From Isoetes taiwanensis (taxonomy: Eukaryota > Streptophyta > Lycopodiopsida > Isoetales > Isoetaceae), in the NCBI GenBank assembly GCA_021234155.1, contig JAJEKV010000092.1:1994561-2058560 (forward strand): a DNA stretch of 64,000 nucleotides, read 5' to 3'. The notes beneath the pieces are model-generated. The model made no database searches and was not told where the DNA came from. It saw nothing but the letters and a program-made list of their open reading frames with translations. Shown here piece by piece: positions 7,132-64,000 of the stretch; positions within the stretch are counted from its first letter, which is position 1, and each line of letters starts with the position of its first letter. The position numbers were made by a program, and so were the translations under genes.

Positions 7132-8234
7132 AACTGCATTTGGCGATGACAGTCTGAATCTTCCAGAACGCAAATTGTGAACAGTAGGTTAAGCAAGTAC
7201 ACCTGGATTTTACACATGCACGGAGATTTTACGCCATGCCTGCCACACCCCTACCTGAATTTTTCAGGCCACCATAAAAAATGTTTATAATAGGTTAGAA
7301 ATAAGGATAATGCATAAACATTACTAAAATCATTACTCTTGGCAGCTTTGATGAGGAATGAATGTTTGGAATTAACACAATGAATGGTTGAAATCATACA
7401 CCATGCTGACACAAACGATTCCGCAGAATACAATGCGCTTTCAAAGAATTATAGTGATACATGGTTAGGTAAATTTTTGTAATTTGCAAGACGGTAATTT
7501 AAATCAAAGCCAAGTATTTGATGAAGTCTGTTGTTTGTTGACATTTCGTAAGCCTGTCACCAACAAAAGTTTGTTCACATCTCACATTATTCTTTCCGTG
7601 TAGGTAGTGGCAACGATTAATGATTTGATGGAACGAGTACATATGTCCATCAAGCAAGGCCATGAACCACGTTCTACATACACACTATTCTAAGGAGGAA
7701 AAGTTTCAAAAGATGTTCTCGGCTTAGTAAGGTCAATCTCCAGTGTGATAAAGACCATTTTTATCGAAAGGAAAAAACCTAACAGTTGTTTCTCACAAGT
7801 TCCGTTGGAGGTGCTTATTAAAACCATGAACAACTTTCTCAAACGTAGAAAATAATTATCAGATACACTGCCTTGCCAGCAACCACATTGAATCCCAACA
7901 CTTTCATAGAATTTCTGCAGCACCTTTGTTCTCAACATGCCCAAACTGTGCATATACTGCAACCATACCTGTGAAGCAGATATTTTTGCATATATGTCAG
8001 TACACACAAGGGATGATGACATTTGAGAAGATGAATTGGAATTGAAGAGTACTGACAAAATGGGAAAACCGGCAAAAAAAATACAGGTTTATTTTAATTT
8101 GAATTTTAAAACCTTCTTAACTGTTCTGCATGCGGTGATTCTGGAGAAGTAGATCAATCTTAAAACCTTTTGGAGACAATATCCTGCCTGCAATCTGAAT
8201 GCTCTCATATCCAAGCCCATCAAACAAGATCACA
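7132..8234. repeat. Segmental duplication, copy 1 (uninterrupted)
   Basis: This ~1.1-kb segment is closely matched by 9960-10346 joined to 23506-24216. The second copy is split by the LTR retrotransposon exactly within its CCAAGGATTTGATGAAG equivalent, so copy 1 (CCAAGTATTTGATGAAG near 7510-7527) shows the empty site. Confidence 0.93.
7604..7855 (+). pseudogene. Decayed terminal exon of an unknown gene, copy 1
   Basis: After an acceptor (TTCCGTGTAG) the frame reads VVATINDLMERVHMSIKQG and continues to TAA at 7855, but has an in-frame TAA after YTLF where the paralogue at 23588-23838 has CAA. The C-terminal part (VLIKTMNNFLKRRK) is conserved between the copies. The original gene is not recognised. 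Confidence 0.4.
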
Positions 8235-9959: not shown

Positions 9960-10346
9960 AACTGCATTTAGCGATGACAGTCTGAATCTTCCAGAACGCA
10001 AATTGTGAACAGTAGGCTAAGCAAGTACACCTGGATTTTACACATGCACGGAGACTTTACACCATGCCTGCCACACCCCTACTTGGATTTTTCAGGCCGC
10101 TACAAAAAATGTTTATAATAGGTTAGAAATAAGGATAATGCGTAAACATTACTAAAATCATTATTCTTGGCAGCTTTGACGAGGAATGAATGTTTGGAAT
10201 TAACACAAAAATGGTTGAAATCATACACCATGCTGATACTAAGGATTCCACAGAATACAATGCGCTTTCAAAGAACTCTACTGATACATGGTTAGGTAAA
10301 TTTTTGTAATTTGCAAGACGGTAATTTAAACCAAAGCCAAGGATTT
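9960..10346. repeat. Segmental duplication copy 2, left part
   Basis: Matches 7132-7520 closely and ends with GATTT at 10342-10346, which is repeated immediately after the right LTR. Confidence 0.93.
10342..10346. repeat. Target-site duplication GATTT (left)
   Basis: GATTT directly precedes the left LTR and recurs at 23501-23505 after the right LTR. Five base pairs is the usual duplication for Ty3/gypsy integrases. Confidence 0.95.
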
Positions 10347-11983
10347 TGTGACGTCCCCTACTCGTATACGGTGCACCCACCGTATACAAACAGGAGTTCA
10401 TCCCCCATACCAGCTCCACACTGATACAGGGCCCTCCACAATCACTGCACCCGTAACGAGTCCCAGTGGGAAGAGTGAAGGGGTCATTTTACCCCGTCTC
10501 CCTCAGGGCCTACCTAGCTGCGGAAGCGTAAACATACATGTCAGTATACAACATAAACACATATCCACCTCGAAGGGTGGGGCATCAACATCTGCATAGA
10601 CAACGATCAGCATCATACAAAGGGGTTCTACCCAAGGCTCAGACTCGAAGGGATGACTGACGGCTTGGGTCTCCAGAGTTCATTGCAGACAGAATTCATG
10701 GCAATGGATTTGGCTGTCATAAGAACATGGCATTGGGTTGTCCACTCCTGTGCACACTTTGCAGAGTAGGCTGAAGAGTGTTGGGACTTGACTGTAGCCC
10801 GCCGGAGGCATAGCCAAAGGGGCTATTCCTAGGTTGCATCTCCCCAGTTCCGATGGGGCAGGTAGGGATCACTCCCTCCAGAGGTCTACATGCTGACCCA
10901 AGGTGACTAGAGGGCCACTGCCCTTATTCGACTGAACCCACTGGAAAGTGTACACCACTTCACGGGTGTCGAGCCCATGCCTTACCCACACTCAGTGGTA
11001 AGCCATTAGGCCTAGTCACAATGACCCCCGGTAGGCCTTACACACCAGAGGGATCGTTCAAGGGTCAGGACACGAACCTCCTTCTAAGCCAGTCTGGCCC
11101 CTTCATCCACAACCAGGTGTGGCTCTTGTGCACAGGCCGAATCTATAGTGTGCTAGAGAGGCTAATCTAGGAGCATCTACTACCAAGCTTTAGGTCTCTA
11201 CCCCCCTTCCCAATACAAGGAGTTCATAGAGATACATCATCCATATACATCACAGGAGAACTAAAGAGCAAGATCTAATCTATATCATAGAGTTAGGTTC
11301 TTTAGTTAGAGTCTGGTATCTAGAGATCTAGAGGGCTGCTATGGGCAATTTAATAGGCTAAACCTACTGATTTAATGACTAGAAGATGGTTTAGGCTATT
11401 AAATTGACGAAATACCTGATCCTTGAGTTCCTCCTCCTGACCTGAGCTCAACCATCCTGCTAAACTGCTCGAATCAAGGGAAACTAATGGGGCAATTCGC
11501 TCAGACAGAGTCTGGAAGGCGGTTTTGACCCCTGGGGCAGCCAAAACAGAGCTCTAAAACCCTAGAAACGAAAAATGGGCAAGTTAGGGTTTCCCTTCTT
11601 AAATAGACAAGGGGTTGGCTAGGGTTTCCAATTATCCCCTTTAGGCATGTGGGATAATTGGGAATGGGCCCACTTACCTTTAATGGCTAGGTGGCAAAAT
11701 GTGCCCACATGGAAAGGTGTGCACATTAATGAATGTGCACATTGGTAAATGTGCATATTAATTGCACACTTGGGTATGGCCCACTTGGCATAAAGTGTCC
11801 ACATGGGAAAATGTTGCACATGGTTAAATGTGCACATTAATAAATGCACATTCCTTGCAAGTTGCCCCCTAGGGCTACCCGCCTGGCTACACGTTGGCGT
11901 ACACGTCAGTCGGGGTGGCGTGTACACGTGACGGGGCAGTACAGTATACGTCCTGGGACCGTATACTGTGCTGGAACGTCACA
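10347..11983 (-). repeat. 3' LTR
   Basis: 1637 bp, TGTGACGT...ACGTCACA. Both ends hold palindromes: GTATACGG/CCGTATAC near 10360-10390 and CAGTATACG/CCGTATACTG near 11942-11970. Between about 11690 and 11860 it has degenerate short repeats centred on the palindrome TGTGCACA. Small open frames are shared with the other LTR only because the LTRs are copies. Confidence 0.97.
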
Positions 11984-11996
11984 TTCTCCCCACCTT
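11984..11996 (-). promoter_or_regulatory. Polypurine tract
   Basis: On the coding strand AAGGTGGGGAGAA lies directly against the 3' LTR. This is where plus-strand DNA synthesis is primed after RNase H cleavage. Confidence 0.9.
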
Positions 11997-12865
11997 GAAA
12001 TGATGCTGTCCGCAGCATCGTGGGTCTCCCCACCTTGGGATCTTCCTAACCTGCAATCACCCTGATACATACAATATACTATTATAATACTTACACATTT
12101 ACTAAGATTACCTTAAGGTAATATTTTTTTAAGCATTATTACGCCCTTAACTTATAAAATAACTTATCAATCCATTACATCGTCAAACAAGTTACTCAAC
12201 AATTCACTTATCACAACAATTTAGTTTATCAAAATTTTAACATTTCATAATTATTGTTCTAGGTACTCTTCATTCCTTGCAACACATTCCAACAAAATTT
12301 GTGTTGCAAGTCTTCGTAGCTCGACCTCCTTACCCTCCGGAGCGCTCTATTGGCCTGCAGGTTGACACTACGTTAGTACCATTTTAATTATTAATAAAAT
12401 TTTGGTTATATGGTGACCACCCCACCTATCTACATGAATGCATGGCTAACCTCCCGGCGTAGGAAGAGGATGAATCTTCCATTATGGCCGTGGAGACAGC
12501 GCCTATATGCCTATATGCCGCTCATGCCTACACCTCTAGTTGCCCAGCGTGGAGGATATCCTTCCCGTATATGGGGCGTGAAGGATAAGTTCCTCCTATC
12601 AAAGCATATATGGGGCTAAAGGTGCCTTTTCCTATCAATGCATCTCTCCATGACCTCCTTTCTCTCGAGGTCGTCTACTTCCGTAGGACAGAAGTAGACT
12701 TTCTAATCTACCTTCCACTCGTCCAAGCGGAAACGCGGTCATGCCTACATCGGCATTACACCACGCCCTAGAGATCACCGTATCGGTCCCATCATCGGTA
12801 ACAACGCATGCAACCCATACCTAGCATAGGTTGCATGCGTAGATTAATCTAAACTACACATAGAA
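11997..12865 (-). other. Non-coding region between pol and polypurine tract
   Basis: About 870 bp after the pol stop with no long frame. Includes AT-rich stretches and imperfect inverted repeats; nothing else recognised. Confidence 0.6.
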
Positions 12866-15800
12866 TTAATCTACACAAATCGACATGCCTGAGCCGATTT
12901 CTTCGGAGATGACCTTGCCGTCCCATTGCTCCATAAACTGTGGGTACTGCTTTAATAGATCCTTCTTGAGTACCCATGTCGCGTCTTCCACTGGCAAGTG
13001 TTTCCACTTGACCAAGTATTGGAGAAACTCTGATCTCCTTGTTTTCTTGAAAGCTTTATCAAGAATTAATTCTGGAACTATTTCCAGCTGCTCCTCCGTC
13101 ATTTCCAACAACGTTGGAGTGTCCAAGACTTCGTCTGGATTTGGAGTGTGCTTATTCAACAAACTCACGTGGAAGACCTTATGAATCTTTAGGTGTGCTG
13201 GTAAGTCCAATCTGTAGGATTGATTACCTACTCTCTTGACTATTCTAAAAGGTCCAGCCCACCTTGGAGCAAGCTTCTTACAATTTCCGATGCGGAGCTT
13301 CGCCTGCTTCACTTTGATCTTGAGCCACACATTGTCGCCAACTTCGAACTCCCTGGCTGTTGACATTTGGGACGATTCCTGCTTGGTGCTATTGTATGCA
13401 AACTCCACCAAGTGAATAAATTCTTCCCACATACCTTGCTTATTCCAGACATAGTTTCGTAGCATGTCCTCTAAAATCCTGTTGGTCCGCTCCGTTTGGC
13501 CATCCGTCTGAGGATGATACGCCGTGCTCATGGATAGCTTCGTCTGAATGGTCGCAAAAAGGTCTTGCCAAAAGGCACTCATAAACTTCGGATCCCTGTC
13601 GGAGATAATCTCCCTTGGCATGCCATGAAGCCTGAAGATCTCTTTGGTGAAGAGCTTTGCTGTATCCATAGCCGTATCTGTGGTCCTGCAAGGCACAAAA
13701 TGTGCCATCTTCGACAACTTGTCGACCACTACCATCAAGGCATCTTTCCCTCTTACTGTCCTTGGAAGCCCTGTGATGAAATCCATGCTGATCACCTCCC
13801 ACTTAGCGTTTGGCACCGCTAATGGCTCTAATGCCCCTGGAATTCGAAGCTGCTCCGCCTTTGTCTGCTGGCATAGCTGACATTCCCTGATGTAGCGAGC
13901 TACCTGCTTCTTCATTCCTGGCCAATAATAGCTGCTGCGTACTTTGAAATATGTTTTCATGAATACCGCATGGCCAGCTATTGGACTGTTGTGCATGTCA
14001 TGGAGGATCAATTTCCTTACACCTGATGATTCGGGCACGCACAACTTGTTCTTATGGTATAACAGGTTGCCTTCCTTCTTATAATGTTTAAAGGCTTCCC
14101 GCTCTTTATCTGTTCTTGCCTCCCTAGAGAGGCTTGCCCATACTTCCTTGAAATCCACATCCGTTGGCAAGGACTCTTCAATCTTCTTACCAAAGTCGCT
14201 GGAGAGCGTCGAAATTGCATTGCAATGCACTCTAGTTGTCAGGGGATGCCTTGAAAGCGCATCTGCTACCACATTGAGCTTCCCTGGCTTGTAGACTATA
14301 TCAAAGTCATACTCTTCAAGGAACTCCATCCATCTTCTCTGCCTCAGGTTGAGGTGTGGTTGCGTGAATACATACTGGAGGCTCTGATGATCTGTATCCA
14401 ATTGGAACTTCCTTCCCAAAAGGTAATGCCTCCAAATTCTTAATGCCCTGACAACCGCAAGCAATTCCTGATCATGCGTGGGATAGCGCGTTTCGGCGTC
14501 GTTCATCTTCCTGGAATCGTATGCTACCACACGCTCTTCTTGCATAAGCACTGCACCTATAGCTATCTTACTCGCATCTGTGGCTACAAGCTTATCTTTC
14601 TCTGGGTCCGGCAGGGTTAGGACTGGGGCGGTTGTTAAAGCTTCCTTCAACAATTCAAACCCTGCTTGGGCTTTCTTGTGCCAATGCTCTGCCCAATCTT
14701 TTACCTTTTCCGCCCTCGTCAAGTCTGTTAGCGGGGCCGCTATCTTAGCAAAGTTCTTCACGAACTTTCTGTAGTACCCTGCTAGGCCGAGAAAACTTCT
14801 GACTTCATGCACATTCTTCGGTGCCGGCCACTGAATCACTGCTTCAATCTTGGCAGGATCCGTTGAAATTCCTTCTGCTGATATCACATGACCTAGGTAT
14901 TCCACCCTCTCCGTTGCGAAGTGACACTTCGACAACTTGGCGTACAACTGGTGCCTCTTCAACTTTTCCAGCACTCTCCTTAAGTGTTGCACGTGTTCTT
15001 CAAGGGATCCGCTATACACCAAAATGTCGTCAAAGAATACAATCACAAAGGTGTCTAAAAACTCCCTGAAGATGTCGTTCATGAGCCTCATGAACGTCGC
15101 GGGGGCATTCGATAAGCCGAAAGGCATTACCGTGAACTCATAATGCCCATACCGCGTTCTGAAGGCGGTTTTATGGATATCTTCTTCCTTTATCCGGATC
15201 TGATGATAACCTGACCTTAAGTCGATTTTGGAGAAGACCTTTGCACCTTGAAGCTGATCCATCAAGTCATCTGATCTGGGAAGCGCATACTTGTTCTTAA
15301 TGGTGTGCTTATTCAACTGCCTATAGTCTATGCACATCCTTAAACTGCCATCCTTCTTCTTAACAAACAGAATGGGCGCTCCAAACGGCGAGACGCTAGG
15401 TCTAATGAAGCCTAGGTCGAGCAACTCCTGCAATTGCTTCTTTAGCTCCGTTAACTCCTGCGTCGTCATTCTGTATGGAGCCTTACTTGTCAACTTTGTT
15501 CCCGGTTCGAGTGCTATCTCGCACTCGACTCCCCTATAAGGAGGGAGCTGCTTGATCTCATCTGGAAAGAGATCATGGAACTCCGTGATCAGGTTAGCTA
15601 CCTGCTTAGGTAACTTGCTGAGCCCCTCATCCTCCTTACCTTCTTCTGGCTCCGGCTCTTGGATCTCAAGCTTGAAGATATAAGCTACCTGCTCACTCCT
15701 TATGCACTTGAGCATCCGTTTAGAAGACATACACTGCATGATGGGAACAACTTCCTTACCTGTGATCTCAATGATCTTGCCGTCGGGCGTTGGGAAGGTC

Positions 15801-16159
15801 ACCTTCTGCTTCCCACAATCGATGATGGCCCCTGCTGGTCCAAGATACTCCATTCCTATGATCAGGTCATACTTGTCAATGCCCATTACCTCTGCCCCCA
15901 TCTGGATATTAATCCCTGGCAAGTCGATGTCGAAATTAATTCTCTTGCCTGCCGTCTGCCTTACTGCTCCACTTGCTAAGAGAACGGGCCTCGGCTTCAA
16001 CTTCAGTGGTTTCAACTTCAACATTTCAACCATTCTGGGGGATGCAAAGTTATGGCTACTTCCTGAGTCTATCAGGACTATGAAAGACTTGGCCTTGGCC
16101 TTCCCTACTGTAGAAATTACCTTGCTTGCTCTGTGTCTATTGCGGCAAAGATATGATAC
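12866..16159 (-). CDS. pol: Chromovirus Pol: protease, RT, RNase H, integrase, chromodomain
   Basis: The frame is open from 16159 to the stop near 12866; the first Met is at 16033, but the protease active site ([10 protein letters not shown], Asp codon at 16069) lies upstream, so Pol is normally made as an extension of Gag. Numbering from that Met: RT about 215-345 with FFDDILVYS near 333-341; RNase H about 480-595 with VATDAS; HHCC zinc finger about 678-721; integrase core with Asp751, Asp812 and Glu848 (35-residue spacing between the last two); a basic GPF-type region; and a C-terminal chromodomain near 1000-1045 ([16 protein letters not shown]). After FAYNS the usual ~70 residues before EFEVGD are missing, an in-frame deletion. 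Chromodomains of this class bind methylated H3K9 and guide integration to heterochromatin. Intact otherwise. Confidence 0.95.
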
Positions 16160-17300
16160 TCACCCTGGATGTAGTCGCGGGCTGCCTCGCCAGATCATCG
16201 TCGAGACGGGGATGTCCCAATCTCCCAACTCGCTAGTGCCGCACTCATGGCGTAAAGGGGCGGGTTTTGTCCTATGGCTTTGTTTGGAAGCACCTGAAGC
16301 AAAGCTGCTTTTCTATGCACTCCTGCCTCTTTTCCTTAGGCATAGCCTGCAAAAAGGATCGCACTGCTTTGGAGTAGTTTGACCCCTCCTGCTTGTCCTT
16401 GAAGGACACCTGCTTTTTCTCCTGCTGCTTCCCCTGATTGCCACCATATGGGGCTCTATTTGGACACTGGATTTGGCTGCCCTAGGGCTATAACTCCCTG
16501 TTGCCTTGCCTTTGTCACGATAATACCTTTGCCTCTGTCCGCTATTCAGGCCCCCGTTCCTTGCAAACTTATTGCCTTGGACTCGCCCGATCTTGTCTTA
16601 GGGTTTATTGCCCTTACAAACTTGCGGATTTCATCATTGACCCCTCAATATAGCTTTCCTTTGCATGCTTTTAAGCCCAACTTTGGCACATAAAGCCTTA
16701 GCCTCATGAATTCCTCTGTATGTTTTACGGACTGATTTGTTTCCACTGTTGCGACCTATAGAACTGCCGCATCATCTTTGGACTTGTGCTCTCTTGGGGA
16801 CGTAATGGCTTGAAGGCTTTAGCGAACTTTACGAACACGCAAGCATCCTGCTCAAGCCATGGGCCTTTGCATACCCCTTCCACCATATCGTCTTTGCTCC
16901 TTTTCGGGTTGGCTATTTGCCACCCCGCCTTTATCCTTGTCCTTCATACCATAAGCGTTGCCATATTCGCTCATCTCATCGAGCCAAACCTCTGCCTCCA
17001 TGCGGGACTGTTTCGCTTTGAGAATTGCTCGAGCTTCACGGCCTTCAAACATTCCCCAATCGAGTCTACCTTCTTACGGTAATCGAGGTTCTTGTGTCCC
17101 TTTGTCATCCATCGTGGTATCCCTCGCCTTCCATCTGCGGTGTTCCTCGCCTTCCATCTGTTCGGTCCCGGGGCTGCTCTTCCTCTTCCTCGGTCTGAGT
17201 CAGAATCGGAGACTTGAGTCGAGAGGATTAGAGCTGGAGGACCTCCTTCTCTTGCTCCTCTTCTTGTCCCTTCACGTTTTCCGAAGCTGATGCTTGAGGC
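16100..17300 (-). pseudogene. gag: Degenerate gag
   Basis: Several minus-strand frames broken by stops carry gag-like pieces: a charged segment REARAILKAKQSRMEAEVW with WLDEMSEYGNAYG at 16852-17052, then FAKAFKPLRP, and just before the protease an AMPKEKRQECIEKQLCFRCF stretch that looks like the first half of a CCHC knuckle near 16320-16290. A TGA at 16162-16160 separates it from the protease frame. Gag forms the virus-like particle and packages RNA; this copy cannot encode an intact one. Confidence 0.7.
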
Positions 17301-17682
17301 AGGCGAGCATTGCCCACCGAACCCACTCCTGCTTGTGACAAAGCAAAGCCTTTATCTGCTCAAGGTGCGTTTCTCATCGTGATATTTCCTCTTACGGGGT
17401 CATGGGTCCAAATTCCTCAAACAGGTTCCTTGCCGGGGGTGGCCTGGGCGGACTCTGTTCTTCTATGTTGTCTCGGCGTTGTCGTTCCCCTGAGCCTAGG
17501 CCTCTAGCTGCATACACAAGTAATTCATGGCTATATGGTTAGTTTTACTTGTTCTCTTGCATTATATGCTTGTTGGTATAGTTGGGGAACAAAATACATC
17601 AACAAAACATTTAATGGTGCAAAAGAAATTATATTTATATTATATAATATTTTAGTACAAAATCTCCGGGATCAAGAGTCTA
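17301..17682 (-). other. Spacer, likely 3' UTR of ORF B
   Basis: On the coding strand this holds an AT-rich stretch (about 17580-17660) with several AATATAA-like signals directly after the ORF B stop, consistent with a separate polyadenylation site. No coding sequence recognised. Confidence 0.4.
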
Positions 17683-19209
17683 TTAATCTTGAAATCGCCG
17701 GTAAGATGGGTTGCCCTCAAGGAACTTCTTAACTTGGGCCGTTCCTATCGAGCTTCCCAAGTTCCTAAGGACATTGGTCGACGTTCCGCCCTGCACGGCC
17801 GTCACCAACTCTTCCACCCTGCGGTCGGAGGTGTAGGCCGTGGTTAATGCCAATCTTCCCTGCCGTCGGTAGGGCACGGCGAAGTCAAAGAGGTCAAGTG
17901 CCATTGCTCTCTTCACTAGGACAGCATAGTCGACAGTTGCCGCTATTCGAGCATGCCTGTCGAAGCCTGAGAGTGCAATAAGCATGAACACTCCTTCTTC
18001 ACCTCGTGGGCTGAATTTGCGGTGTACCACCGCTATTCTCCCATCCAGCAGCAGGGGCAGGTAGTACCTTAGCGACCTGTCGTTGTGTGTCGCAGATGAT
18101 TCCCCACTTGCTTGGCCTCCAGCTCTGTGCCGTCCAGCGTAGTCGTCGACCTCTATCTCAGTTAACTCTCGGTAGTCTGCAATTGTGGAGTCGACTCGCC
18201 TGATGTCGATTCCTGCTCCTCTTGCTGGAGGTGGTGTCGAGGGGCTCGGCATCAAGATGCTGGTGGTCTTGCCTCTGATCCCCATCCGTTCTTGGATGGC
18301 GAGGAACTCTTCTTCCGATGGCAGGTCTCCGGCCTCCATGACCTGTCTTATGCTGCTGTAGGCCTGGATATCAGACGTCGACTCCCCTGTGTAGGTGTCG
18401 GCTTCTCGCACTTGAAGCGGGAAGTCTGAGGCTCCCCGGACGATGAAGTCGTCCATTTCTGGTTGCTGCCGTAGTTGGTGCAGCAACTCATCAAGTCCGA
18501 GCTCCCTCTCCCTGCATTCAGGGAGGTTCTGGATGTCACTGAGGAGTAAATACTCCTCTCCGTTGATGATGATGGGGGCTAGGCTTGTGATGCCTAGCCC
18601 GAGTGGGGGAGCAATTCTGAGGGTCTGCCGGCTCCGCTCGATGTTGGCCAGCTCCTCCTCTGCTTGGCGCCGTTCTTCGTCTGAGTCGAGCTCCGTGTAC
18701 TCTTCGTCGTCCGACTCCTCTTCTCCTTCTCTTCCTTCTTGCTCCTGCTGGTACTGCAAAAGCATCCGCTCTGCTGCTTGGGCTGCTATGGGGTCCACCT
18801 CCATCGGAGGGATAGAGGTTGCCCCCATTGGGTTTTCGGCGCGGTGGGATAGGAAAATAGCTAGGGCGGCAGTGCAGGAGAAATACTTGGTTCTGTCAAC
18901 TGTCAGGACCATGTAGTCTGGCAGCCTCTGCGCCTTGTTAGTCAAGTACTTGGCGATGTTGGGGACATCACCCAAGGCTGCTTGAAGGGATGGGCGGGGA
19001 ACAAAGTAGCCTATGCAAGGGGGGAGCTGAACGCGGGAGGGTCCTACCCTAGCTTGGAACTCTGCTAGAACTTGTCTATATGCTGGGGTTGCATTCAAAG
19101 TGGCTTGGAAATCTATTTCTCTCCCAAAGACTCGGAAGATGTCATTGACATCCGCCTCGGTAGCATGGGCACTGGCGCTGTACCATCGCCTGAAGTCAGC
19201 AGTGGCCAT
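17683..19209 (-). CDS. Extra ORF B of the retrotransposon, 508 aa, unknown
   Basis: An uninterrupted 508-codon frame between the PBS and gag, on the pol strand. I do not recognise a domain. Residues about 1-130 look globular (DFRRWYSASAHATEADVN; LPDYMVLTVDRTKYFSCTA). Residues about 150-195 are very acidic with EGEEESDDEEYTELDSDEE. The C-terminal third looks globular again (SLRYYLPLLLDGRIAVVHRK; FDRHARIAATVDYAVLVKRA). It has no zinc knuckle and no gag motif. A TATA box at 19324-19331 and two hairpins at 19523-19789 lie upstream, suggesting it is expressed from its own transcript. Remaining open while gag has decayed suggests recent function or later loss. It could be a structural, silencing-suppressor or regulatory accessory protein; nothing in the sequence decides this. 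Confidence 0.75.
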   Translation of the reverse strand: MATADFRRWYSASAHATEADVNDIFRVFGREIDFQATLNATPAYRQVLAEFQARVGPSRVQLPPCIGYFVPRPSLQAALGDVPNIAKYLTNKAQRLPDYMVLTVDRTKYFSCTAALAIFLSHRAENPMGATSIPPMEVDPIAAQAAERMLLQYQQEQEGREGEEESDDEEYTELDSDEERRQAEEELANIERSRQTLRIAPPLGLGITSLAPIIINGEEYLLLSDIQNLPECRERELGLDELLHQLRQQPEMDDFIVRGASDFPLQVREADTYTGESTSDIQAYSSIRQVMEAGDLPSEEEFLAIQERMGIRGKTTSILMPSPSTPPPARGAGIDIRRVDSTIADYRELTEIEVDDYAGRHRAGGQASGESSATHNDRSLRYYLPLLLDGRIAVVHRKFSPRGEEGVFMLIALSGFDRHARIAATVDYAVLVKRAMALDLFDFAVPYRRQGRLALTTAYTSDRRVEELVTAVQGGTSTNVLRNLGSSIGTAQVKKFLEGNPSYRRFQD

Positions 19210-19323
19210 TGATCTAGCGAAGAAGGGAGTATCAAACAGATGCAGAAGCGCCTCAGGGAGCTGGAAGATCGCCTAAGCAGTGGAGAGCAAACTTGTAGGG
19301 TGCTAATTGAGAAATGGGGGACC

Positions 19324-19331
19324 TATTTATA
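19324..19331 (-). promoter_or_regulatory. TATA box upstream of ORF B
   Basis: On the coding strand CTATAAATAGG, 115 bp upstream of the ORF B ATG. The same core with the same flanks (CTATAAATAG) sits 101 bp upstream of ORF A. Confidence 0.7.
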
Positions 19332-19522
19332 GAAAAGGGGAAAACCCTAATTTTGGGATAACCTAGAATTTACTGGGATTGGGTGATTCTGATCTATTAA
19401 GAGGTGCAATTGAGAGTTTGAAGACTACTTTTAGGGTTTGAGCATGCTAAGATGGACTAATGAACCTATTGCAACAAATTGGAGATCATTTGAATGTGGC
19501 ATGGTGGAGAAAATGCTAAGAG

Positions 19523-19589
19523 GTCTCACACGTTGCGCCCAGACCGATAATGAAAAGTTCATTTTCTGCCCTGGCACGACGTGTGAGAC
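19523..19589 (-). repeat. Hairpin repeat copy 1 (upstream of ORF B)
   Basis: A 67-nt inverted repeat with outer arms GTCTCACACGT / ACGTGTGAGAC, then GCGCCCAG / CTGG-type complementarity, and a weaker inner stem. One of four related copies. Confidence 0.9.
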
Positions 19590-19722
19590 ATGGGCTCTAA
19601 ATGGGCTAAACTTGATCAATTTGGGTGATCTAAGGGTGTAATTCTACTGGACTCGTTGAGATAGGCAGAATTGACCTCTTATTTGGTCGATTTGGAGCTG
19701 TTTTGGGCATTTTTGGGGCATG

Positions 19723-19789
19723 GTCTCACACGTTGCGCCCAGCCCGAAAATGAGATTCTCATTTTCTGTCCTGGCGCGACGTGTGAGAC
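19723..19789 (-). repeat. Hairpin repeat copy 2 (upstream of ORF B)
   Basis: The best copy: outer arms GTCTCACACGTTGCGCC / GGCGCGACGTGTGAGAC and a perfect inner stem GAAAATGAGA / TCTCATTTTC. Begins 200 bp from copy 1. Confidence 0.92.
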
Positions 19790-20123
19790 ATCGTCTCAAT
19801 TTTGCTCAAAAAGTCCAATTTGATCAAAACAAAAGCTAGAATTCAATATCTTAACCTAGTTAAGCAAGATTGGACACATTATTTACACAAAAATTCTTTA
19901 TATTAACAAAATTTTTCATTATTTACAAGAAGCTCAAGGGCGTTCTCCCTTGATGTGTCTGGCCAAATACATATCCTGTCTCATAAGTGTGACCCTTTTC
20001 GCGTGAACTGTGCAGGCCGTCGAATCTTCAAAGTGCTGCACCAGTTTTGCCTCTCTTGCCTCTGTGAGACACGGCAACATTTAATTCGGTCCGCGTATGC
20101 GTGTTATACTCTTGCATAACCTC
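19790..20123 (-). other. Spacer, likely 3' region of ORF A transcript
   Basis: AT-rich sequence between the end of ORF A and the ORF B hairpins, with AATAATG and TTAATATAAAG-type signals on the coding strand around 19900-19930. No coding potential seen. Confidence 0.4.
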
Positions 20124-21174
20124 TCAGACCAAGCGTTGAAATGGCGCTCGGGGGATCAAAGTAAAGTAACCCATTTGGAAGTCGGATTTTCGAGGGCTCT
20201 CTGCTCCTTCGCTTCTTTGTTGGTCGCTTCTTTCACGGTGCTCACGGGAGGCTTGGGCTTCGGTGGTGAGGGTCTGACTTTTTGTCGGGCGTCCGCCTTC
20301 TATTGTTCTCACCCTGTGCTCCTGGTAGTAAGCGTTGTATGCCTCCCACTTCGCCATGTAAGCGTTGTGCTCCTTGATCTTCTTCTGATAGACCTTGGCG
20401 GGGTCTATCACGTACGCCTCCCGTTGTGGCCGTGGGGCTTTGACCCTATCCCACGTTGGGAATGGTGGGGCCGGCGCCTGCGGGCTGCTCTGCTTTCGGT
20501 GCCACACCTTTCGGGTACTTCCTTCTCCGCGGTAGGGGTTTGAAGAGCTTGCCCCGGTGTTGGGGGCGTAATCTTCGTCCAGAATCGTCGGTAGAGGGGG
20601 GAGTACGCTTTCGCTGATGGCTCCCTCATGGCCCGGACCCTGGCGGCTCGCTTGCCAACCTTCACAACTGTTCTCTTGCCCGCCTTAATGCCTTTGGCCC
20701 TCTTCCTCTTCGGCTCGTCAGCTGTGGTTGGCTCGTCCTCCCGTCTTTTTGTCCTCCTCTCTCGGCGGCGCTCTTTGGCTTCATATTTGGCGATAAGCGC
20801 CCAGAAGTGCGCTTCTTCGGTGGGGGCTAAGCTTTGGGCCCGTTGCTCCTCCCTCTCCTCGGCTTCTGCTGAGGCGGGCCCAAGCTTCGAGTTGTTCCTC
20901 GACAGTCGGCTGTCCCCTCTGCTCCCGTTCCTCCTTGCTCCTCCTTTCCTCCTCTGCGATTTGCTCGAGAATTTGGTGCATGACATCCGGCTGCTCCTCC
21001 CCTATGACCTCAATTACATGCGCTTTGAGTGCAGGTTTGCCTCCTCCTTTGGATGAAGATTCGCCTTCTTGGAAAAGGCGTTCTTGGAGTATCCTCTGAA
21101 TCAATCGTCCTTTGGTCATTTGGAAGATTCGGGCCTCGGCGGGGCTTCCTAGCAGTCTGCTTTGTCCGGGCCAT
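20124..21174 (-). pseudogene. Extra ORF A region: charged nuclear-type protein with histone H3-like N-terminus, frameshifted
   Basis: Coding character moves through three minus-strand frames: 21174-21010 (starts MARTKQTARK), 21119-20781 (helical, LIQRILQERL then EEERRSKEERE), 20986-20408 (FWALIAKYEAKERRRERRTK, then a strongly basic KRKRAKGIKAGKR) and 20507-20124 (KVYQKKIKEHNAYMAKWEAY). I read this as one ancestral protein of roughly 350 residues broken by about three small indels; overlapping genes cannot be excluded without other copies. The basic cluster is a plausible nuclear localisation signal, and the rest is coiled-coil-like. It has its own TATA box (21275-21282) and two hairpins upstream. 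Function unknown; the first ten residues point to chromatin. Confidence 0.6.
21010..21174 (-). CDS. 54-codon frame starting with an exact histone H3 tail (ARTKQTARK)
   Basis: ATG at 21174-21172 is the first Met after an in-frame stop near 21268, and 101 bp below a TATA box. The codons ATG GCC CGG ACA AAG CAG give MARTKQ and continue TARK, then PRRGPNLPND. With the initiator Met removed before Ala, as in H3, the mature N-terminus would equal H3 residues 1-9, with K4 and K9 in place; H3 has Ser10 where this has Pro. Similarity to H3 stops there, so it is not a histone gene. The frame ends at TGA 21012-21010, while the more protein-like continuation lies in the frame starting at 21119. Whether this arose from capture of an H3 5' end or by convergence is unknown. 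Confidence 0.8.
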   Translation of the reverse strand: MARTKQTARKPRRGPNLPNDQRTIDSEDTPRTPFPRRRIFIQRRRQTCTQSACN

Positions 21175-21274
21175 ATTCGACGGTTCGCCGATCCGAGCTA
21201 TGCGCCAGAAGATCGCCTTGACAAACGAGAGCGGATTTTCTAAGGAAGGGACCGGAATGGGGGGGGTCTAGATC

Positions 21275-21282
21275 TATTTATA
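21275..21282 (-). promoter_or_regulatory. TATA box upstream of ORF A
   Basis: CCTATAAATAGATC on the coding strand, 101 bp before the ORF A ATG. Shares CTATAAATAG with the box before ORF B. Confidence 0.7.
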
Positions 21283-21359
21283 GGGGTCTATTTTAGGTCA
21301 AATTCCAAACTACCTTTTTGGGTTGCCTAAAACATCTAAAACACCTAATTTTAAGCAAG

Positions 21360-21423
21360 GTCTCACAAGTTGCGCCCAGACCGATAATGAGTTCATTTTC
21401 TGTCCTGGCGCGACATGTGAGAC
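21360..21423 (-). repeat. Hairpin repeat copy 3 (upstream of ORF A)
   Basis: 64-nt copy of the hairpin family with outer arms GTCTCACA / TGTGAGAC and the GTTGCGCCCAG / CTGGCGCGAC middle. The inner stem is shortened. Confidence 0.9.
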
Positions 21424-21558
21424 ATGGTGGGTCCCGCTACTAAATTTTATAGTTTCTAAGCATATAACATGTCAATTTTACTACTTCTTAGATGAAAATT
21501 AGAATTATCAAGTTATTTTTCTGTAATTTATGACTTTTTAGTGTGTTTCAAGCTGAAT

Positions 21559-21625
21559 GTCTCACACGTTGCGCCCAGCCCGAAAATGAGATTCTCGTTA
21601 TCTGTCCTGGCGCGACGTGTGAGAC
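21559..21625 (-). repeat. Hairpin repeat copy 4 (upstream of ORF A)
   Basis: 67-nt copy, outer arms as in copy 2, inner stem with two changes. Begins 199 bp from copy 3, nearly the same spacing as copies 1 and 2, although the DNA between them is unrelated. Confidence 0.92.
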
Positions 21626-21824
21626 CACCCTACTTTTTGGATGTTGGCTCACCAATTTTAGTCTCTTTTTTTTTTATGTTTTCATTCATTTTAACTGTTA
21701 CTAGCTTAGCATAAACTACAAAAATGAGAAATTTTTTTTCCCATTTTTCGAGGTTTGAGAATCCTATCAAGTTAGTACTACTGAGAGCATGGTCAGTGCT
21801 TTGCTCTTGGTCTCCAAGAACATT

Positions 21825-21836
21825 GCTCTGATACCA
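21825..21836 (-). promoter_or_regulatory. Primer binding site for initiator tRNA-Met
   Basis: On the coding strand TGGTATCAGAGC, one base inside the 5' LTR. This is complementary to the 3' end of initiator tRNA-Met, the usual primer of plant Ty1/copia and Ty3/gypsy elements. Confidence 0.95.
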
Positions 21837-21837
21837 C

Positions 21838-23500
21838 TGTGACGTCCCCTACTCGTATACGGTGCACCCACCGTATACAAACAGGAGTTCATCCCCCATA
21901 CCAGCTCCACACTGATACAGGGCCCTCCACAATCACTGCACCCGTAACGAGTCCCAGTGGGAAGAGTGAAGGGGTCATTTTACCCCGTCTCCCTCAGGGC
22001 CTACCTAGCTGCGGAAGCGTAAACATACATGTCAGTATACAACATAAACACATATCCACCTCGAAGGGTGGGGCATCAACATCTGCATAGACAATGATCA
22101 GCATCATACAAAGGGGTTCTACCCAAGGCTCAGACTCGAAGGGATGACTGACGGCTTGGGTCTCCAGAGTTCATTGCAGACATAATTCATGGCAATGGAT
22201 TTGGATGGCATAAGAACATGGCATTGGGTTGTCCACTCCATCCGCCCCTCCTGTGCACACTTTGCAGAGTAGGCTGAAGAGTGTTGGGACCTGACTGTAG
22301 CCCGCCGGAGGCATAACCAAAGGGGCTATTCCTGGGTTGCATCTCCCCAGTTCCGATGGGGCAGGTAGGGATCACTCCCTCCAGAGGTCTACATGCTGAC
22401 CCAAGGTGACTAGAGGGCCACTGCCCTTATTCGACTGAACCCACTGGAAAGTGTACACCACTTCACGGGTGTCGAGCCCATGCCTTACCCACACTCAGTG
22501 GTAAGCCATTAGGCCTAGTCACAATGACCCCCGGTAGGCCTTACACACCAGAGGGATCGTTCAAGGGTCAGGACACGAACCTCCTTCTAAGCCAGTCTGG
22601 CCCCTTCACCCACAACCAGGTGTGGCTCTTGTGCACAGGCCGAATCTATAGTGTGCTAGAGAGGCTAATCTAGGAGCATCTACTACCAAGCTTTAGGTCT
22701 CTACCCCCCTTCCCAATACAAGGAGTTCATAGAGATACATTATCCATATACATCACAGGAGAACTAAAGAGCAAGATCTAATCTATATCATAGAGTTAGG
22801 TTCCTTAGTTAGAGTCTGGTATCTAGAGATCTAGAGGGCTGCTATGGGCAATTTAATAGGCTAAACCTACTGATTTAATGACTAGAAGATGGTTTAGGCT
22901 ATTAAATTGACGAAATACATGATCCTTGAGTTCCTCCTCCTGACCTGAGCTCAACCATCCTGCTAAACTGCTCGAATCAAGGGAAACTAATGGGGCAATT
23001 CGCTCAGACAGAGTCTGGAAGGCGGTTTTGACCCCTGGGGCAGCCAAAACAGAGCTCTAAACCCTAGAAACGAAAAATGGGCAAGTCAGGGTTTCCCTTA
23101 TTAAATAGACAAGGGGTTGGCTAGGGTTTCCAATTATCCCCTTTAGGCATGTGGGATAATTGGGAATGGGCCCACTTGCCTTTAATGGCTAGGTGGCAAA
23201 ATGTGCCCACATGGAAAGGTGTGCACATTAATGAATGTGCACATTGGTAAATCTGAACATTAATTGCACACTTGGGTATGGCCCACTTGGCATAAAGCGT
23301 CCACATGGGAAAATGTGCACCTAGATAAATGTGCACATGGTTAAATGTGCACATTAATAAATGCACATTCCTTGCAAGTTGCCCCCTAGGGCTACCCGCT
23401 TGGCTACACGTTGGCGTACACGTCAGTCGGGGTGGCGTGTACGCGTGACGGGGCAGTACAGTATACGTCCTGGGACCGTATACTGTGCTGGAACGTCACA
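21838..23500 (-). repeat. 5' LTR
   Basis: 1663 bp, nearly identical to the 3' LTR. It has a short extra segment near 22240 (CATCCGCCCCTC type) and another near 23315 relative to the left copy. Followed directly by GATTT at 23501-23505. Confidence 0.97.
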
Positions 23501-23505
23501 GATTT

Positions 23506-24216
23506 GATGAAGTCTGTTGTTTGTTGACATTTCATAAGTGTCACCAACAAAAGTTTATTCACATCTCACATTATTCTTCCCGTGTAGGTAGTGGCAACGA
23601 TTAATGATTCACGGAACGAGTACATATGTCCATCAAGCAAGGCCATGAACCACCTTCTACATACACACTATTCCAAGGAGGAAAAGTTTCAAAAGCTGTT
23701 CTCGGCTTAGTAAGGTCAAGCTCCAGTGTGGCAAAGACCATTTCTATCAAATGGAAAAAACCTAACAGTTGTTTCTCACAAGTTCAGTTGAAGGTGCTTA
23801 TTAAAACCATGAACAACTTTCTCAAATGTAGAAAATAATTATCAGATACATTGCCTTGCTAGCAACCACATTGAATCCCAACACTTTCATAGAATTTGTG
23901 CAGCACCTTTGTTCTCAACATGCCCAAGCTGTGCATATACTGCAACCATACCTGTGAAGCAGATATTTTAGCATATATGTCAGTACACACAAGGGATGAT
24001 GACATTTGAGAAGATGAATTGGAATTGAAGAGTACTGACAAAATGGGAAAACCGGCAAAAAAAATACAGGTTTATTTTAATTTGAATTTTAAAACCTTCT
24101 TAACTGTTCTGCATGCGGTGGTTCTGGAGAAGTAGATCAATCTTAAAACCTTTTGGAGACAATATCCTGCCTGCAATCTGAATGCTCTCATATCCAAGCC
24201 CATCAAACAAGATCAC
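23506..24216. repeat. Segmental duplication copy 2, right part
   Basis: Continues the match to copy 1 from 7519 and stops at AACAAGATCAC, where copy 1 goes on into its 125-bp tandem repeat and this copy into unrelated sequence. Confidence 0.93.
23588..23838 (+). pseudogene. Decayed terminal exon of an unknown gene, copy 2
   Basis: Paralogue of 7604-7855. It lacks the premature stop of copy 1 but has lost one base near 23610 (GATTCACGG versus GATTTGATGG), so the acceptor frame and the MSIKQGHEPPSTYTLFQGG frame no longer join. Confidence 0.4.
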
Positions 24217-45930: not shown

Positions 45931-46859
45931 AGCATATGTCGAGTGATTGAGGATTAATTGAATCAATAATTGAGGGTTAGTTGGAGGCTGACGTGTCTGT
46001 ATAGTTTTAGGTTTGAGTCCTCATGAGGATATAAAATGTAAAATGAATGGAGGGATGTGTGCATCTCATAGTTCAGTTAGTCTCTAGTAGAAGTTAAAAG
46101 TTATTTTCTTCTTCATAAGCCTATATATATATATTTTGTAATAAGGCTTAGTGTAGAATATGCATCTTATAGACCAAATATTCTAAAAAACCATTAACTA
46201 TTTGTTTCGTGTGTTATGAAAGATGTTGTTTTCTTGGTTTGGAAAAACAAATAAAAGTCAAAAAGCATGGGCAAGTTCATGAATAACATATAAACTTTTA
46301 AGTATAGCACAAATCTCGTAACACACCAAAACAGTATTTTCAAAAAAAAATTGTTCGATACAAAGCGTGGTCGTATTTTTGCTTTCTTATTTTGTTTCTT
46401 CAAATCCAAAACACATCTCCATTTTTTTCAACAAAACCATGGCTATCGACCCTGAAACAAAGTGCCTAGGCTCCTTCAGAATGCAAATCATTGCCATAGC
46501 CAGGAGCTCCAACTCCGTCATCCTGTTTGTGAGACTGCTGCAAAGAGCCACTCCAAATGCATGAGGAAGGGATGGATCACAAACTGTAACAAAAAAATAG
46601 AGCATATAGCAAAAAGTGTTTGTGGATATAAATGCTTTCCTTTTATTAGCTTCAATGTCCACTTTTATATAAAGGTTCCTCCTTTATATTTAAATGGTCC
46701 ATCTTTTTCTATTGTAGGCTTGATTTGTGGTGTAATAATATCTTCTTGACCCTAGATATTTCAGTGCCCCTTAGATAAAGTCCTTAAACCCAATGGTCCA
46801 TCCAAGAATTTTTTTTTTTTTTTTTTTTGATTAAAACTTTTTTCTTCAATCAAAATTCC

Positions 46860-47151
<292 letters not shown>

Positions 47152-47340
47152 CAACTCTCACCTCGAACTTAGAGATGACGAGAGAGAATAAGCAGAGAAG
47201 AATGGTAGAGATGAGAGATGGGGAGAGTTTTGGGTGAGAGTGGGAAACCCAACTCTCACCAAAGATGATTTGCCTTAATTTTTTCATTGCCCACTAACCA
47301 AACAATTAGCCTTAATTTTCCCACCCAAAAAACTACCCAA

Positions 47341-49494: not shown

Positions 49495-51222
<1,728 letters not shown>

Positions 51223-51248
51223 GAAATGAAATGAAATGTATTACGTCT

Positions 51249-58486: not shown

Positions 58487-64000
<5,514 letters not shown>

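Follow-up and report, generated by a model that had tools for sequence, protein, structure and literature searches.

An H3-type histone gene carried by Ty3/gypsy chromoviruses of the lycophyte Isoetes taiwanensis

Introduction

Why should an open reading frame of a plant retrotransposon begin with the exact N-terminal tip of histone H3? The window analysed here is a stretch of 64,000 nucleotides from Isoetes taiwanensis (contig JAJEKV010000092.1). On its minus strand, positions 21145–21174 read ATG GCC CGG ACA AAG CAG ACT GCT AGG AAG, translated as M-ARTKQTARK, in which all nine residues after the methionine are identical to residues 1–9 of H3; the same tail is present in the host H3 genes of Isoetes. 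Hosts control retrotransposons to a large extent by way of H3 marks, and an element possessing its own H3-type histone together with these nine K4- and K9-bearing residues would strike that control at its substrate. A preliminary description of the locus considered the H3 similarity to stop after residue 9, and proposed that the product acts as a decoy or recruiter of chromatin modifiers, or is methylated at K9 and bound by the chromodomain of its own element.

The H3 tip and the histone fold of ORF A

The motif methionine is the first methionine of a frame open from stop to stop at 21010–21267 (minus strand), confirming both the codons and their position at the start of a retrotransposon ORF, here termed ORF A. 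A nine-residue exact match at a first methionine lies far beyond chance. Compared with the H3 N-terminal tail (ARTKQTARKSTGGK...), the match of ORF A is limited to residues 1–9; position 10 is a proline where H3 has a serine, and the chain continues as PRRG, followed by approximately 320 non-H3 residues. The similarity to H3 nevertheless resumes further on, contrary to the preliminary description. The window frame at 21010–21174 is only the initial piece of a frame-broken ORF A copy, an H3-type histone gene whose pieces lie in three frames at 19937–21174 (minus strand), as located by tblastn of the natural ORF of the sister copy L006 against the window. What is left of the H3 histone fold occupies its 3' end at about 19937–20204 (minus strand; the upper bound is computed from 89 residues), in a frame that differs from that of the motif.

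In the copies L006 and L007, an uninterrupted ORF A of 417 codons runs from the motif methionine, a frame length reached by two of the 27 copies for which a length was given (L022 has 415). The last 90 or so residues of both ORFs form an H3 histone fold according to Pfam (Histone, PF00125; E = 3e-27 for L006 and 5.9e-26 for L007) and the PDB, in which solved H3 chains match ORF A of L007 with E = 8.8e-26. By sequence, both follow the H3-type order of αN and α1-L1-α2-L2-α3, and a structure model of ORF A, of a confidence too low for use (mean pLDDT 54), displays the H3 helix order. The tip is exact in L006, and K4 is replaced by Glu in L007. Residues invariant across a 12-protein alignment include C392, H395, K397, R398, V399, T400, D405, and L408, which correspond to C110, H113, K115, R116, V117, T118, D123, and L126 in H3 numbering, a set comprising the H3–H3' contact and nearby DNA contacts. 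Because the sister copies carry the H3 fold, a tail-only mimic is rejected, and a short linear motif mimicking a histone on an otherwise non-histone protein is likewise ruled out. Of the tail-decoy proposal, the placement of the motif within a selected retrotransposon ORF holds good; the bare tail does not, since the ORF encodes a whole H3-type histone.

Another reading is that the element carries a centromeric variant, CENH3, with which it would seed centromeric chromatin. The αN region reads KEIRHFQ and LLIP, as in plant CENH3, and the fold of the window's family (T1) lies beside CENH3 sequences in one midpoint-rooted tree; however, the placement differs between two trees, and the deep nodes of the midpoint-rooted tree are mostly weakly supported. 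Furthermore, Loop 1 has the length found in H3, without the insertion of CENH3, the tip is that of H3 rather than the MARTKH start of CENH3, and the T1 fold is 57% identical to one host H3 compared with 52% to CENH3. An identity of ORF A as CENH3 is unlikely, and the seeding of centromeric chromatin by the element appears highly improbable.

The carrier element

ORF A belongs to a Ty3/gypsy chromovirus of 13.15 kb at 10347–23500 (minus strand), bounded by a 5' LTR at 21838–23500 and a 3' LTR at 10347–11983 (both minus strand), which are 97.1% identical and end in TG..CA. A 5-bp target duplication, GATTT, is situated at 10342–10346 and 23501–23505, a purine tract precedes the 3' LTR, and the primer binding site TGGTATCAGAGC at 21825–21836 is of the plant initiator-tRNA type. 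The components are arranged in the order 5' LTR, ORF A, ORF B, gag, pol with a chromodomain, and 3' LTR. The LTRs, primer binding site, target duplication, and pol were read in the window itself, and gag and protease in the L006 copy, which matches the window colinearly at 90–94% identity, beginning at the LTR and reaching as far as the start of the integrase core. The order gag, protease, reverse transcriptase, RNase H, and integrase, together with LTRs, primer binding site, and target duplication, is that of a Ty3/gypsy chromovirus. The L007 copy retains the LTR, ORF A, and ORF B; no pol match was found within the 8.1-kb piece downstream, and its element is therefore incomplete there. Directly past the point at which the pol match between the L006 element and the window ends, an ORF (L044, 6377–7267) resembles a Copia-type reverse transcriptase/RNase H, and is probably a nested insertion.

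The pol region at 12866–16033 (minus strand) contains reverse transcriptase, RNase H, integrase, and chromodomain by Pfam, with a dN/dS of 0.09 in one pair of copies. The chromodomain forms the C-terminus of the integrase (residues 986–1038; 12920–13078, minus strand; PF00385, E = 1.2e-9). In the PDB it most closely matches a Chd1 chromodomain, the alignments having been examined for Chd1-type chains only, and positions 1 and 3 of the aromatic cage read as non-aromatic against the HP1 sequence. Both features weaken the earlier idea that the ORF A product, methylated at K9, is bound by the element's own chromodomain, and this idea is not favoured. Such an incomplete cage resembles the plant type II chromodomains, described as having no known partners (PMC3350952, PMC6317226).

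ORF B, at 17683–19209 (minus strand), is intact and encodes 508 amino acids, with a dN/dS of 0.16–0.18 in two pairs. It matched nothing in Pfam or the PDB, and its structure model (mean pLDDT 35) is too weak for use. A relative with 45% identity (P0146) lies on a 2-kb contig, and a distant homologue adjoins the H3 ORF in a second H3-carrying lineage, termed T2. Two hairpins of approximately 70 nt are located upstream of ORF A at 21359–21625 (21359–21427 and 21559–21625, minus strand) and fold at −34.5 and −38.8 kcal/mol; two more of approximately 76 nt are situated between ORF A and ORF B at 19522–19797 (19522–19597 and 19722–19797, minus strand), in a block that shares 73.6% identity with the upstream one across 288 aligned columns. 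Both blocks recur in the L006 and L007 copies, and are perhaps signals for expressing the two extra ORFs. Outside the LTRs, the element is flanked by a 234-bp direct repeat with 99.6% identity (8000–8233 and 23983–24216), which may extend to the left of 8000. Elsewhere in the window, simple repeats at 46827–47213, 51048–51233, and 60614–60777 read as long Arg-Glu runs.

Conservation of the tip and selection on ORF A

A genome search gave at least 43 matches (40 of 1500 candidates scored). Forty loci were aligned, with the window as L001, and five that did not cover the motif or were misaligned (L032, L035, L037, L038, and L040) were left out, leaving 35 copies, the window included. Among these, the motif is exact in 23, altered at one residue in three (L007, L029, and L039), and disrupted in nine. 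At the DNA level, the 23 exact copies fall into 15 spellings, which vary among other things in CGG/AGG and in the use of four alanine codons. On visual comparison, the window's spelling of the tip is matched by none of four host H3 genes. The published assembly was made from long reads and then polished (PMC8566536), so some of the disruptions may be assembly errors.

Over all 35 copies, the dN/dS of the nine motif codons is 0.14, compared with 0.31 for the whole ORF. In the 26 near-exact copies, the values are 0.01 and 0.27, respectively, the former being circular because these copies were chosen by the motif. The motif was also ranked among 408 nine-codon windows along ORF A, with copies carrying an indel or a divergent patch dropped alike for every window. 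Under the strictest filter, which drops copies with a patch more than 20% different from every other copy, the windows at codons 4, 3, and 2 are the three lowest of the 408 (pN/pS 0.018–0.024, n = 26; median across windows 0.22). The motif window ranks 15th of 408 with a 35% filter, 45th of 408 when the distance filter is omitted, 77th of 408 with nothing dropped (35 copies), and 142nd of 408 with nothing dropped among ten copies chosen as open elsewhere, in which the motif is exact in six, changed at one residue in two, and disrupted in two. Disrupted patches are scattered over ORF A, and the tip is not special in this respect; the rank of the motif is ordinary under a lax filter or none, owing to disrupted copies dispersed throughout the set. 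Conservation of the motif stands for the majority of the 35 copies, and its standing out from the rest of ORF A depends on the filter. The 15 synonymous spellings and the lowest windows under the strict filter make an exposed H3 N-terminus plausible, and the alignments support the view that the motif bears the mark of selection.

The whole of ORF A is under purifying selection, like the other genes of the element. Pairwise dN/dS amounts to 0.10–0.25 for ORF A (nine pairs) and 0.06–0.26 for the fold alone (six pairs), well below 1; these values are comparable to those of ORF B and pol, and ORF A hence behaves as an element gene. That ORF A is a selected, element-encoded H3-type histone is very nearly certain in our judgement.

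The strong constraint on the tip under the strictest filter, where it is the most constrained stretch, together with the divergence of the T1 fold from H3, would suit a histone mimic whose tip sequesters or recruits the enzymes and readers of H3K4/K9 outside nucleosomes. However, the fold is selected too, with the H3–H3' contact residues kept, and related lineages retain the fold without the full tip. We regard a decoy of this kind as unlikely.

Other H3-carrying chromoviruses in the same genome

The same genome holds a wider set of H3-carrying chromoviruses. A Pfam Histone search gave 8704 first-look candidates, at least 150 of them above the cut-off (150 were scored and all passed). Fifteen of the 150 are canonical host H3 genes (L045–L059, 164–165 bits); the other 135 score 144–155 bits, many having open frames of 300–494 codons and five having a stop within the match. 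Twenty-five of the 135 were examined, namely L060–L064 and 20 more (L065–L084), a sample that is not random because the 20 were picked mainly for long open frames. All 25 possess an open frame with the H3 fold at its end, and none contains MARTKQTARK within that frame, the true start lying outside the view in several. The absence of the motif from other copies, which the preliminary description held to count against its importance, is therefore seen in part, in these related lineages as well as in the disrupted T1 copies. Such related ORFs, devoid of the full tip, indicate that the tip is dispensable for a general function.

By their start and C-terminal half, the 20 were sorted into types T2 (11), T3 (5), T4 (2), and T5 (2); L063 is a further T3 match. 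T2 starts with M[PS]RFKL where the start is visible, and T4 with MANTKSAP. T5 (L082 and L083) starts with MARTKGTKS, in which the first four H3 residues are followed by an altered continuation, possibly an intermediate state of the tip. One representative each of T2–T5 can be aligned mutually over most of the ORF, including the fold, at 43–48% identity, which marks the long tail as an ancient trait common to these types. T1 matches T2–T5 significantly in the fold and the stretch adjoining it, and nowhere else.

One T2 element carries, after its H3 ORF, a homologue of ORF B (23% identity, E = 9e-14) and next gag-pol, which is 75% identical to the window pol over 891 residues. All six elements checked (two T2, one T3, one T4, and two T5) have a pol match downstream, located on the expected strand. 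The best pol piece is 72–85% identical in five of them, including 128 residues at 85% in the T4 element, whose other pieces are at 41–57%; the pol pieces of the sixth, L093, are 40–59% identical.

The folds of T2–T5, taken from one copy per type, are 85–88% identical to one host H3. With pairs at dS ≤0.05 or saturated left out, the median fold dN/dS is 0.04 in T2 (15 copies, 96 of 105 pairs kept), 0.01 in T3 (6 copies, 14 of 15 pairs), 0.01 in T4 (one pair), and 0.00 in T5 (one pair), at median dS values of 0.31–0.83. Between one copy each of T2–T5 and one host gene, the synonymous sites of the fold are saturated, and hence no recent capture is seen for these types. These data bear on the possibility that ORF A came along as a passenger, an H3 gene acquired by capture, serving no function and conserved solely through recent descent. 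Transposons commonly capture genes, and H3 copies borne by fungal hAT elements have been judged possibly drifting or inactivated (PMC3538342, PMC6710886). However, dN/dS far below 1 in T1 and in four other types (one pair each in T4 and T5), and a single peptide in 15 synonymous spellings, leave a passenger scarcely credible.

Long H3 proteins of the same plan, consisting of tip, unrelated tail, and fold, also occur in the fern Ceratopteris richardii. Among the best 120 of 6130 matches, at least nine Ceratopteris clusters with 36 member sequences were found (P0024 and eight more). Five of the nine listed clusters carry the exact MARTKQTARK and one carries it with one change; three do not have the tip, two of which are annotated from a later methionine. 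P0024 shares the layout of tip, tail, and fold with the Isoetes proteins, but its tail has no detectable similarity to theirs. Five further entries from the source 'ena' (P0006, P0012, P0017, P0019, and P0020) share this architecture. The tails of P0024, P0006, P0012, and P0019 showed no clear similarity to the Isoetes T2–T5 tails, apart from one match of P0019 reaching approximately 40 residues ahead of the fold. Viral contigs scanned with P0019, with the alignment A2, and with P0146 gave no confirmed relative.

Possible role of the element-encoded histone

The retention of a histone under selection suggests that a DNA-packaging protein of their own may travel with these elements. The ORF A protein would enter the nucleus, pair with host H4, and be assembled into nucleosomes on element cDNA or on fresh insertions. 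On these nucleosomes, host enzymes and readers of H3K4/K9 would still meet A1-R2-T3-K4 and T6-A7-R8-K9 in the conserved tip. Simultaneously, with S10, K14, K27, and the remaining normal tail absent, the host could not write its usual combination of silencing marks; a T1 tip that is kept but followed by proline at position 10 would fit the docking of K4/K9 factors without the S10 switch. The preserved contact residues, the constraint on the T2–T5 fold, and the loss of most tail positions favour nucleosomes with a substituted tail. On balance, we consider it rather probable that a chromovirus-borne H3-type histone becomes part of the nucleosomes on element DNA; for incorporation into chromatin, taken by itself as the way in which the ORF A product works, we see roughly even chances.

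The histone could instead act in the particle or the pre-integration complex, where it would pack the cDNA or, by way of the H3 tip, link it to host chromatin, and thereby aid nuclear entry or the choice of integration site. The incomplete chromodomain cage, as read against HP1, speaks against such a role, and the histone-like constraint on the fold in the other lineages (0.00–0.04) is more easily explained by true nucleosome contacts. The position of ORF A and ORF B before gag, the long and charged tail of ORF A, and an integrase chromodomain of a type described as having no known partner (PMC3350952, PMC6317226) agree with it. A particle role is doubtful, although less so than the decoy.

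With nucleosomal packaging as the preferred reading, a broader history may be suggested tentatively, with the chances somewhat against it: a clade of plant chromoviruses would have possessed its own H3 ahead of the divergence of its lineages, and its DNA would be packed in nucleosomes that the elements themselves specify. In one lineage the fold would have been reshaped and the exact 1–9 tip retained, and in the others the fold preserved and the tip exchanged for another sequence. If this is true, genes for the H3 fold on retrotransposon copies outnumber the canonical H3 genes of the host by far. Sister lineages that keep either the tip or the fold provide a natural experiment in which the role of the tip is separated from that of the fold.

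Comparison with known systems

In open-licence papers on histones in mobile elements, no case of a histone gene borne by an LTR retrotransposon was found; H3 carried by hAT transposons is known from fungi. Additional ORFs of plant LTR retrotransposons are, like those of Isoetes, conserved within families, but they are reported mostly between pol and the 3' LTR, whereas the two ORFs in Isoetes stand upstream of gag; the main text of that study does not use the word histone (PMC7264820). An orchid Ty3/Gypsy element with an ORF for an AlkB m6A demethylase is described as having similarly acquired a host-type gene, the product of which is active in vitro and likewise acts on a host regulatory layer; unlike ORF A, it is an RNA demethylase and not a structural protein of chromatin (PMC9289625).

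In Pseudocercospora and its relatives, a transposon captured and amplified H3, as in Isoetes, but the carrier is a hAT DNA transposon and every captured copy is reported to be inactivated by RIP (PMC6710886). In Pyrenophora tritici-repentis, a hAT transposon carries H3L in 26 copies, with ESTs reported (PMC3538342). H3L resembles ORF A in being borne by a transposable element, in fitting neither H3 nor CenH3, and in having insertions in its N-terminal tail; it differs in belonging to a fungal DNA transposon with near-identical copies, for which the authors suggest drift (PMC3538342). The fungal hAT-borne type is excluded for the Isoetes locus by its carrier, an LTR retrotransposon. Compared with the Pyrenophora system, that of Isoetes consists of lycophyte LTR retrotransposons with diverged copies under measured purifying selection and with the exact tip of H3 residues 1–9.
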